A stretch of 39,398 bases of DNA, taken from Chitinophagaceae bacterium (GTDB lineage Bacteria > Bacteroidota > Bacteroidia > Chitinophagales > REEL01). The notes under the pieces were generated by a model. The model saw only the letters and a list, made by a program, of their open reading frames with translations, made no database searches and was not told the DNA's origin. A program made the translations under genes and the position numbers. Of this stretch, positions 11,811 to 13,590 are shown in pieces (positions within the stretch are counted from its first letter, which is position 1; each line of letters begins with the position of its first letter). The DNA lies in contig REEL01000072.1 of NCBI GenBank assembly GCA_007695095.1, positions 1 through 39,398 on the forward strand, given 5' to 3'.

Positions 11811-11853
11811 TTGATTTAGATCCAATTATGCTTGCATTGTTGAAAAAATGATC
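11811..11853 (+). promoter_or_regulatory. Leader of the methyltransferase gene with two GATC sites
   Basis: GATC occurs at 11819-11822 and 11850-11853 within the 70 bases before the methyltransferase start. The 13-mer TTGATTTAGATCC at 11811-11823 recurs exactly at 11961-11973 inside the gene, where it encodes part of the FDLDPC motif. Adenine methylation or DpnI-type cutting could touch these sites, but no regulatory function can be shown from sequence. Confidence 0.25.
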
Positions 11854-11878
11854 TGATATTTGCTTTAAATTCTCAAAA

Positions 11879-12370
11879 ATGAATGTTACTTTCGATAAAT
11901 CAAAAGATTCAACAATTGAATGGTTGACACCACCGGAACTTGTAAAAAAGCTGGGAACATTTGATTTAGATCCTTGCACACCTATCAATCCGCCTTTTCT
12001 TCATGCTAAAGAAAATTATAACATGAATGATGATGGATTATCTAAAAAATGGTTTGGACGAGTTTACATGAACCCACCGTATGGAAGAGGTATGGAAAAA
12101 TGGATTGAAAAGTTAAAAATACACGGGAACGGAATAGCTTTGATTTTTGCCAGAACGGAAACTAAATGTTTTTTCAATCATATCTGGGATGATGCTGATG
12201 CCATTTTATTTGTAAAAGGCAGGATTAAATTTTATAATATAGAAGGTAAGCAAAAAGGAACTCCCGGCTCTCCCAGCGTATTTATAGCCTACGGCAAAGA
12301 AAACGCTGATAAACTTGAACAATCTAGGATAGAAGGTAAATATATTCGACTAAATCAACGTAATTCATAG
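11879..12370 (+). CDS. Phage-type DNA N6-adenine methyltransferase (Dam family)
   Basis: A 163-residue protein with the compact architecture of the phage DNA N6-adenine methyltransferase family: WLTPPELVKKLGTFDLDPC at residues 15-33, the catalytic NPPYGRGMEKW from residue 65 (NPPY, typical of N6-adenine enzymes), and IALIFARTETKCFF and GSPSVFIAYG further on. It transfers methyl groups from S-adenosylmethionine to adenine; some family members, such as phage T1 Dam, act on GATC. All expected motifs look intact. It is convergent with the DpnI-like gene pair and its last 16 bases overlap the small partner gene. If it methylated GATC it would create the substrate of its neighbour, so its specificity or expression must be special. 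It may be a prophage remnant. Confidence 0.85.
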   Translation: MNVTFDKSKDSTIEWLTPPELVKKLGTFDLDPCTPINPPFLHAKENYNMNDDGLSKKWFGRVYMNPPYGRGMEKWIEKLKIHGNGIALIFARTETKCFFNHIWDDADAILFVKGRIKFYNIEGKQKGTPGSPSVFIAYGKENADKLEQSRIEGKYIRLNQRNS

Positions 12371-12558
12371 ATTATAAATTCTGACACATTGAATTCTGCT
12401 TCGATTATCCATGAGTTTTCTTTAAGCAAATTTACAATGGCCTCATTTTCATTATTGACATTTTCAATGATTCCTAATACTTGTAAATTTTCAACTTCAA
12501 AATCAGCATTAGGTGCAATCGTATGCCCTTCAGGAGTTAGTATGATGTATTTTTTCAT
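12355..12558 (-). CDS. Small unknown protein linked to the DpnI homologue
   Basis: A 67-residue protein from the ATG at 12558 (MKKYIILTPEGHTIAPN). The start lies one base after the stop of the DpnI-like gene, which argues for translational coupling. It ends in an acidic, hydrophobic stretch (WIIEAEFNVSEFIIYELR). A longer 78-residue version from 12591 would overlap the upstream gene. No family is recognised. The classical DpnI cassette of pneumococcus also has a second gene, dpnD, after the endonuclease gene, so the position matches; homology to DpnD is not established here. It overlaps the methyltransferase 3' end by 16 bases in antisense. Confidence 0.6.
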   Translation of the reverse strand: MKKYIILTPEGHTIAPNADFEVENLQVLGIIENVNNENEAIVNLLKENSWIIEAEFNVSEFIIYELR

Positions 12559-12559
12559 T

Positions 12560-13324
12560 TTAAATTTTTCTATATTTTCCACGACCCTCAAATTCTAATA
12601 TCCCTCTATCTCTTAACAACTGTAATTGCTGCCTGATTTTATCCTTAATGTAATTGTTATTAGGATACTTGTTTTTGAGGCTATCTTCAAATTTATATAC
12701 TTCATCAAGTGAAAAAGATTCTTTATCAATTGAGTCAACGCAGTTCATTATATCTAATATCCAACCTTTTGCAACTTTTGATTTTTGTCTTAGAAACAAA
12801 GTTTTTTTAAAGGATTCATTTACACGTTCTGCATCTATAACATTTGAGTTTTTAACTAAAAAAACTTTTCCTGCTTTAGAAATTTTTGAAATATCTATAT
12901 TGCAGCCAATCCAACCTGCTCTTCTTGCAGTTTCTTTCAAAGGTGCCCGTTTAATTATGATGTCTTCAGTGAAAAACTGCTTTGGAATAATCAAAAAGTT
13001 TTCAACTTTCAATTCTTTATTGTAATTGAGAAAAAAGAAATTAGGGTTATTCTCCGCTTTTATTCTTTCAATCATAGAAGTATACGCACCATCTATTATT
13101 ACATTTGAAAACTTGCCATTTTTACTTTTTAACTCAAACTCTTCATCACAAGAATTACAAAAAAAGTCAGCTACAGGTCTATTGTTAACAAATTCATTAA
13201 GTGGGAGCTTTCCGCAACTTGGGCAGTATCCATTACTTTTGACCCAATCCTCTGATATTACACGGCCTATTTGAGACTTGCTAATATAACCTTCAGCCTT
13301 TGAGATGTTTAATGTTAAATTCAT
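12560..13324 (-). CDS. dpnC: DpnI-type methyl-dependent restriction endonuclease
   Basis: The start at 13324 (MNLTLNISKAEGY) gives 254 residues, the length of DpnI as remembered, and aligns from the first residue; upstream in-frame codons are probably untranslated. Near-identical blocks include NNRPVADFFCNSCDEEFELK, NNPNFFFL, TARRAGWIGCNID and the C-terminal KIRQQLQLLRDRGILEF. Catalytic PD-(D/E)xK residues fall at D53, E64 and K66, and the methyl-pocket W138 is kept. C34, C37, C56 and C59 form a metal-binding set. The last 70 residues are the winged-helix reader domain. Known DpnI cuts GATC when adenine is methylated, destroying Dam-methylated phage or plasmid DNA, so the host should lack GATC adenine methylation. 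It sits near tRNA-Arg, a common site for acquired genes. Confidence 0.95.
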   Translation of the reverse strand: MNLTLNISKAEGYISKSQIGRVISEDWVKSNGYCPSCGKLPLNEFVNNRPVADFFCNSCDEEFELKSKNGKFSNVIIDGAYTSMIERIKAENNPNFFFLNYNKELKVENFLIIPKQFFTEDIIIKRAPLKETARRAGWIGCNIDISKISKAGKVFLVKNSNVIDAERVNESFKKTLFLRQKSKVAKGWILDIMNCVDSIDKESFSLDEVYKFEDSLKNKYPNNNYIKDKIRQQLQLLRDRGILEFEGRGKYRKI

Positions 13325-13502: not shown

Positions 13503-13516
13503 CTTTAATTTTTGCG

Positions 13517-13590
13517 TGATCTCGGAGGGATTCGAACCCCCAACCTCCTGATCCGTAGTCAGGTGCTCTATCCAGTTAAGCTACGAGACC
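13517..13590 (-). tRNA. tRNA-Arg(ACG)
   Basis: A 74-base cloverleaf on the minus strand. The acceptor pairs GGTCTCG with CGAGATC (one G-T pair), with A as discriminator. The anticodon stem is CCTGA/TCAGG with loop CTACGGA, giving anticodon ACG (read as ICG after deamination by TadA). The T arm is GGGGG TTCGAAT CCCTC. CCA is not encoded. Confidence 0.97.

Follow-up and report, generated by a model that had tools for sequence, protein, structure and literature searches.

A conserved DpnI cassette of Bacteroidota with a convergent, probably GATC-specific adenine methyltransferase and paired GATC sites in the methyltransferase promoter

We identified a 1.5-kb cassette of three tightly packed genes in the window, i.e. 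the whole stretch of 39,398 nucleotides analysed here, which represents contig C72 of a 3.49-Mb genome (186 contigs, 98.6% complete). An operon of dpnI and a small middle gene, sm, on the minus strand meets the convergent gene of a PF05869 adenine methyltransferase on the plus strand. The arrangement, in which the methyltransferase gene runs toward the dpnI-sm operon and overlaps it at the 3' end, is conserved as a unit and not due to chance, and a pair of GATC sites in the methyltransferase promoter is under selection. The cassette nuclease appears to attack what its neighbour would make, and its target site stands twice in the neighbour's promoter. Our leading interpretation, which we hold tentatively and rate somewhat short of probable, is a DpnI-type methyl-directed restriction system with a built-in GATC methyltransferase that would normally be off. 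The cassette comprises the following features of the window.

11819..11822, no strand: GATC site 1 of the methyltransferase promoter, -60 from the ATG (sequence; comparison of cassette promoters)
11850..11853, no strand: GATC site 2 of the same promoter, -29 from the ATG, 31 bp from site 1 and just upstream of the -7-like box (sequence; comparison of cassette promoters)
11855..11862, plus strand: candidate Bacteroidota -7 box GATATTTG (consensus TAnnTTTG), tentatively assigned from sequence and upstream-region alignment
11879..12370, plus strand: adenine-N6 methyltransferase of family PF05869 (phage Dam family), 163 aa (PF05869 match; NPPY and FDLDPC intact)
12355..12558, minus strand: sm, 67 codons, conserved 67-aa protein, directly behind dpnI (sequence conservation across cassettes)
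12560..13324, minus strand: DpnI homologue, 254 aa, Type IIM Gm6ATC-dependent endonuclease family, with a C-terminal winged helix (Pfam, PDB, residues)

The 3' ends of sm and the methyltransferase gene overlap by 16 bp (12355-12370). A first-pass annotation of this DNA had given correct coordinates and reading frames for the methyltransferase and DpnI genes and had rightly described both as present and intact. It had placed them 0.5 kb apart, whereas their stop codons are separated by only about 190 bp, and it had overlooked both the third gene between them and the GATC pair upstream of the methyltransferase. On the other side of the cassette, 190 bp from dpnI, lies a tRNA-Arg(ACG) gene (13516-13590, minus strand) with its 3' end toward the cassette, a possible integration site. 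Insertion of the cassette at this tRNA gene with direct repeats was considered and rejected, as no convincing repeat pair flanks the cassette and no integrase was found.

DpnI cuts DNA solely where GATC is methylated, and by every feature compared the nuclease of the window is an ordinary member of the DpnI family. It matches PF06044 (E=5.8e-77) and the HTH domain PF17726 (E=5.5e-34), and aligns end to end with DpnI in PDB entry 4esj (E=1.5e-100, 56% identity). This alignment upheld the earlier description of an intact 254-codon gene with D53, E64, K66, four cysteines and W138: the catalytic PD-(D/E)XK residues (D53, E64, K66), the four-cysteine zinc site (C34, C37, C56, C59) and the residues of the methyl pocket and base reading (N48, D78, R126, L129, R135, W138, G140) are all kept, with residue roles taken from PMC4117772. 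Across 21 cassette DpnI proteins the Gm6ATC-reading residues are unchanged, bar one substitution at R126, and closely similar DpnI proteins exist without a methyltransferase (L007 and L010 versus L008). Given the unchanged m6A-reading site and these similar dpnI genes without a methyltransferase, the cassette does not appear to be a classical Type II restriction-modification system, in which the methyltransferase shields the host from the nuclease. DpnI is present in only three of 60 relatives, own genome counted, and a search of phages and plasmids found it to be essentially absent there.

The methyltransferase of the window scores 43.8 bits against PF05869 'Dam' (cut-off 28.1) and 32.8 bits against the equivalog TIGR01712 phage_N6A_met, below the curated cut-off of 97.05. 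Its motifs FDLDPC (residues 28-33) and NPPY (residues 65-68) are intact, as had been noticed before, and are invariant, together with dozens more positions, across 20 cassette methyltransferases. In a tree, all 23 cassette methyltransferases fall into a single clade (SH-aLRT 99) whose nearest neighbours are phage enzymes; they share 47-58% identity with phage relatives, and the best IMG/VR match is at 58%. M.Phi93DAM, retrieved with the window methyltransferase as query (E=1e-9), is only about 33% identical to the cassette enzymes and sits on another branch; this phage enzyme makes DNA DpnI-sensitive, i.e. it methylates GATC (PMC4190342). PamA, a methyltransferase of an S. aureus prophage whose place in PF05869 was taken from the literature and not from an alignment of our own, likewise methylates GATC (PMC12435837). 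The cassette methyltransferase thus has GATC-methylating relatives and probably methylates GATC itself. Searches of the own genome found neither a second PF05869 protein nor a D12-type Dam. The structure model of the methyltransferase had a mean pLDDT of 60 and was left out of the reasoning.

All three cassette genes are under purifying selection, the methyltransferase as strongly as DpnI. The methyltransferase has a median pairwise dN/dS of 0.13, sm and DpnI have 0.16 each, and the close pair L040/L051 has values of 0.09, 0.09 and 0.13, respectively. Because dN/dS is low (0.06-0.13) and the catalytic motifs are invariant, the methyltransferase gene is not decaying, which contradicts the option of a decaying prophage gene that the first-pass annotation had listed. 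Apparent in-frame stops in the methyltransferases of L118 and L120 were dismissed, each being the terminal stop codon.

A search for the gene pair in other Bacteroidota, suggested with the first-pass annotation, started from a DpnI scan of 84,980 species genomes (GTDB), which yielded 80 DpnI loci. Among these, dpnI-sm with the convergent methyltransferase occurs in 19 further GTDB genomes; a twentieth possible locus, L068, has dpnI and then sm, after which the contig ends. In 395 genomes of the class, a profile search recovered six close methyltransferases besides that of the window. Two were already counted (G209 = L036, G177 = L033), two add loci with DpnI, sm and the methyltransferase (L119, L120), one has sm and the methyltransferase with a different nuclease in place of dpnI (L118), and one (G274, 50% identity) clusters among phage enzymes and lacks all cassette partners. 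In total, the three-gene unit is found at 21 other Bacteroidota loci besides the window, so the genes are not chance neighbours, and the absence of conserved co-occurrence that the first-pass annotation had named as a refuting condition does not apply. At 17 of 20 loci the convergent genes share 6-16 bp at their ends, and 22 of the 23 members of the cassette methyltransferase clade adjoin DpnI, a repeated pairing that a functional link predicts. On a DpnI tree of 80 rows, the presence of the sm-methyltransferase tail needs at least 12 changes. Two tails are exchanged behind mobile dpnI genes, sm with the methyltransferase versus DpnD (PF14207), the latter sometimes with a CcrM/DpnA-like methyltransferase. 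Carriers of the cassette include culturable Flavobacterium and Pedobacter, among them Pedobacter glucosidilyticus DSM 23534, Flavobacterium glaciei DSM 19728 and F. alvei.

At least two GATC sites lie within 75 bp upstream of the methyltransferase start codon in 20 of the 23 cassettes. Sixteen promoters have exactly two sites 31-33 bp apart and three have them 12 bp apart. The promoter of L029 has four, at -62, -52, -42 and -30, which span 32 bp in steps of 10-12 bp, approximately one helical turn; counted with L029, 17 promoters have their outermost sites at a distance of 31-33 bp. Only one of 79 methyltransferase promoters of phage relatives has two GATC in 75 bp, and among 75-bp control windows of the cassette loci two GATC occur in 0.7% of random and 2.0% of AT-rich windows. 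Within 110 bp upstream of dpnI, the cassettes have no GATC. The downstream site abuts the -7-like box, which is kept as ..ATATTTG in most relatives according to the upstream-region alignment. The cassette loci are related by descent, and the bases around the GATC sites have diverged; within one subclade (L013, L118 and L120 versus L036 and L119) the spacing has changed and the pair was retained. That the pair stayed while neighbouring bases and spacing changed argues for selection on GATC as such. A distance of 31-33 bp corresponds to three helical turns and would make the two sites face the same side of the helix. Such pairs, rare in phage relatives, point to GATC as the target of the enzyme and to methylation-dependent control, and we infer that the promoter reads GATC methylation. 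When methylated, the pair would be a good DpnI substrate, because a second site in the substrate improves DpnI activity (PMC4117772). The three promoters without GATC sites (L033, L038, L045) have an imperfect palindrome, ACTTATTGTATGTA, upstream of the methyltransferase; the same palindrome stands upstream of the GATC pair in L022, L024, L025, L031 and L035 and is a possible operator for a methyltransferase regulator.

The small protein Sm has no family match in Pfam, NCBIfam or PADLOC. Its AlphaFold2 model (pLDDT 92) has the order beta-beta-alpha-alpha-beta, and comparison of this fold with the PDB gave no match at E<=0.001, just weak viral look-alikes. Homology to DpnD was rejected (no PF14207 match; hhalign profile comparison probability 1.6%). 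The gene stands directly behind dpnI in every cassette with dpnI, and a role on the nuclease side is probable, since sm likewise follows nucleases that have no methyltransferase: dpnI in a Bacteroidaceae genome (L081:957-1160) and a second nuclease in L132 and L139. This second nuclease family of about 245 aa has no Pfam match. At L118 (7122-7865) a 247-aa member (PADLOC REase_II, E=2.7e-9) replaces dpnI and is followed by sm and the convergent methyltransferase. Other members occur with sm only (L132:2674-3417, L139:1501-2235), directly before another PF05869 methyltransferase (L135-L137), or stand alone, e.g. on a Halobacterium plasmid. Because it is able to live without a methyltransferase, this nuclease is probably modification-dependent and a candidate new m6A-dependent nuclease, and the pairing of such nucleases with a methyltransferase may thus be wider than DpnI.

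Many DpnI loci have the remnant of a different methyltransferase. Directly upstream of dpnI in about 25-30 loci (L008, L011, L013, L018, L019, L040-L042, L044, L048, L049 and about 15 others), a D12 methyltransferase of the GATC-specific DpnM/MboI type is truncated at very different lengths, from 19 to approximately 300 codons, and its reading frame often runs on into an inverted-repeat element. It seems that dpnI was repeatedly inserted into or behind a GATC methyltransferase gene. At many loci (e.g. L015:5915-5998, L049:5890-5998, L008:5905-5985) the junction preceding dpnI contains the inverted-repeat element of about 80-100 bp, GGGCGTTCCC...AAAAGGATTT...CCCTAACGC, which looks like a recombination or cassette boundary; its core sites do not fit an integron attC, a candidate that was therefore rejected. 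D12 Dam matches were present in nine of 20 carrier genomes. They were rejected as functional Dam, those examined being truncated DpnM-like remnants or distant YYGGK-type or other enzymes, and two near-complete DpnM-like genes (L013, L049) have the C-terminus missing. A separate arrangement was observed in L007, L011, L015, L019, L044, L053, L072 and L080, where a CcrM/DpnA-like adenine methyltransferase of the beta class, apparently intact, comes after DpnI-DpnD on the same strand; this is a second architecture in which DpnI has a possible GATC or GANTC methyltransferase as its neighbour.

The conflict that the first-pass annotation saw between an intact DpnI and a probable GATC methyltransferase is thus real, as both genes are intact and conserved together. 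A cell with an active DpnI would not survive constant GATC methylation, and the methyltransferase would therefore have to be silent, conditional, exclusive with DpnI or limited to special substrates. Among the four options raised earlier, 'silent until triggered' appears to us the best. Under this model, the cassette methyltransferase would methylate GATC, and its promoter would be nearly silent in the uninfected cell; host GATC would stay unmethylated and DpnI would cut only incoming Dam-methylated DNA. The promoter GATC pair would tie transcription to GATC methylation by the own enzyme or a phage-encoded Dam and create a feedback. Infection would fire the promoter, phage and host GATC would become methylated, DpnI would cut both, and the infection would be aborted, through conditional self-destruction or through 'mark-and-cut'. 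Such two-enzyme 'mark-and-cut' immunity, in which infection induces a host GATC methyltransferase via a methylation-reading promoter and turns own and phage DNA into DpnI substrate, is a possibility that we hold with more doubt than the general interpretation given at the outset. In restriction-modification, the methyltransferase normally protects from its nuclease. If the model is true, this logic is reversed, with the methyltransferase as the trigger and not the protector, in an inducible system that marks self-DNA for destruction. A phage adenine methyltransferase acting at GATC is known to trigger abortive retrons (PMC12548924).

A host with fewer GATC sites might suffer less self-damage, and the balance would tip further against the phage. 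The ratio of observed to expected (O/E) GATC is 0.53 in the own genome (306-kb sample G000), 0.42 in cassette hosts and 0.79 in seven control genomes, which spread from 0.21 to 1.0. Depletion is equally strong (0.34) in the flanks of DpnI hosts without the methyltransferase, and for this reason it argues only weakly for the model; as proof of self-cleavage it was rejected, being suggestive and not specific to methyltransferase-bearing cassettes. In the same 306-kb sample, the most avoided palindromic tetramers are CTAG (O/E 0.28) and GATC, followed by GTAC and GGCC at about 0.7.

Among the rival explanations, an expression toggle with two heritable states, methyltransferase on and DpnI off or the reverse, survives best and is nonetheless unlikely. 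The methyltransferase-on state would be Dam-plus and protected from DpnII/MboI-type enzymes, and the population would hold both pneumococcal-style specificities in one genome. The overlapping convergent ends would make read-through transcripts mutually antisense, the GATC sites 31-32 bp apart are reminiscent of pap-type switches, and the absence of GATC near the dpnI promoters can be read in its favour. Against the toggle, no methylation-responsive element was found in the dpnI promoter, and a cell leaving the methyltransferase-on state for the DpnI-on state would die unless its methylation had been diluted beforehand.

We also consider it unlikely that the methyltransferase recognizes another sequence, in which case there would be no conflict and the two would be partners for some other purpose, such as dual marking or the clustering of defence cassettes. 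PF05869 is a diverse family whose characterised members do not include the closest phage relatives of the cassette enzymes, but GATC pairs stand in the promoters of exactly this gene in nearly all cassettes and in a single phage relative, and the characterised related enzymes methylate GATC; another target, as proposed in the first pass, thereby loses ground.

Action on single-stranded, incoming or hemimethylated DNA only, like that of pneumococcal DpnA in the DpnII system, or methylation that leaves host sites merely hemimethylated, would likewise avoid the conflict, as DpnI cuts hemimethylated GATC poorly (PMC12707154). Also in favour of such action, beta-class CcrM/DpnA-type enzymes occupy the corresponding place at other DpnI loci. 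This explanation is improbable: methylating incoming DNA protects nothing in a DpnI cell, no link to competence genes was seen, and the phage enzymes tested modify double-stranded DNA in vivo.

The truncated D12 genes fused to the inverted-repeat element, and the swapping of cassette tails between DpnI lineages, would fit a passenger from module exchange, with the methyltransferase as what remained of a GATC restriction-modification locus after DpnI had inserted into it; this is very improbable, because the PF05869 gene, unlike the D12 remnants, shows no truncation at any of 23 loci and strong purifying selection acts on it. A shift in DpnI specificity, e.g. to unmethylated GATC, would turn DpnI and the methyltransferase into an ordinary Type II system and had been another of the earlier options, but it is hardly credible in view of the conserved Gm6ATC-reading residues and of the similar DpnI proteins without a methyltransferase, a state that would be lethal for a conventional endonuclease.

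Compared with known systems, the cassette is closest in its nuclease to pneumococcal dpnC-dpnD, with which it shares a full-length homologous nuclease with identical specificity residues and a small protein encoded directly behind it, in a genome without D12 Dam. The small protein of the window is Sm and not DpnD/PcfM (PF14207), which occurs behind other Bacteroidota DpnI genes, and the pneumococcal DpnI cassette has no methyltransferase, whereas the window unit includes a convergent intact one with a GATC-paired promoter. Some restriction-modification methyltransferases, e.g. CfrBI, act on a site in their own promoter. The cassette resembles these in that the predicted target of the enzyme lies in the promoter from which the enzyme itself is expressed, but it has two GATC three turns apart and a partner nuclease that is methyl-dependent, not methyl-blocked. 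With the phage PF05869 Dam enzymes (M.Phi93DAM, PamA, Bacteroides phage B40-8 gp15), some of them proven GATC-specific, the cassette enzymes have family and catalytic motifs in common; they differ in forming their own clade and, one phage relative aside, in the promoter GATC pair.

The meningococcal drg of Neisseria, or 'dam replacing gene', is a DpnI homologue inserted at dam, a GATC methyltransferase locus that it replaces or disrupts (PMC516771), and the D12 remnants before dpnI at other loci resemble this case; the window has no such remnant and retains a second, unrelated methyltransferase intact. For McrBC, a methyl-specific nuclease, chromosome methylation activates the enzyme and the host dies (PMC2614495). 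The likeness is a methyl-dependent nuclease that would kill the cell once a methyltransferase acts on the genome, but in the McrBC case the methyltransferase is the invader, whereas in the window it belongs to the cassette of the nuclease itself and is conserved there. When m6A-dependent nucleases with a winged helix were surveyed, few adjacent methyltransferases were noted, those described being frame-shifted or inactivated (PMC11037411). A conserved intact methyltransferase beside an m6A-dependent nuclease, described neither there nor in other literature found, is new here, as is the GATC pair in its promoter. If the proposed reading is true, the cassette runs counter to the expected absence of intact GATC methyltransferases beside m6A-dependent nucleases.
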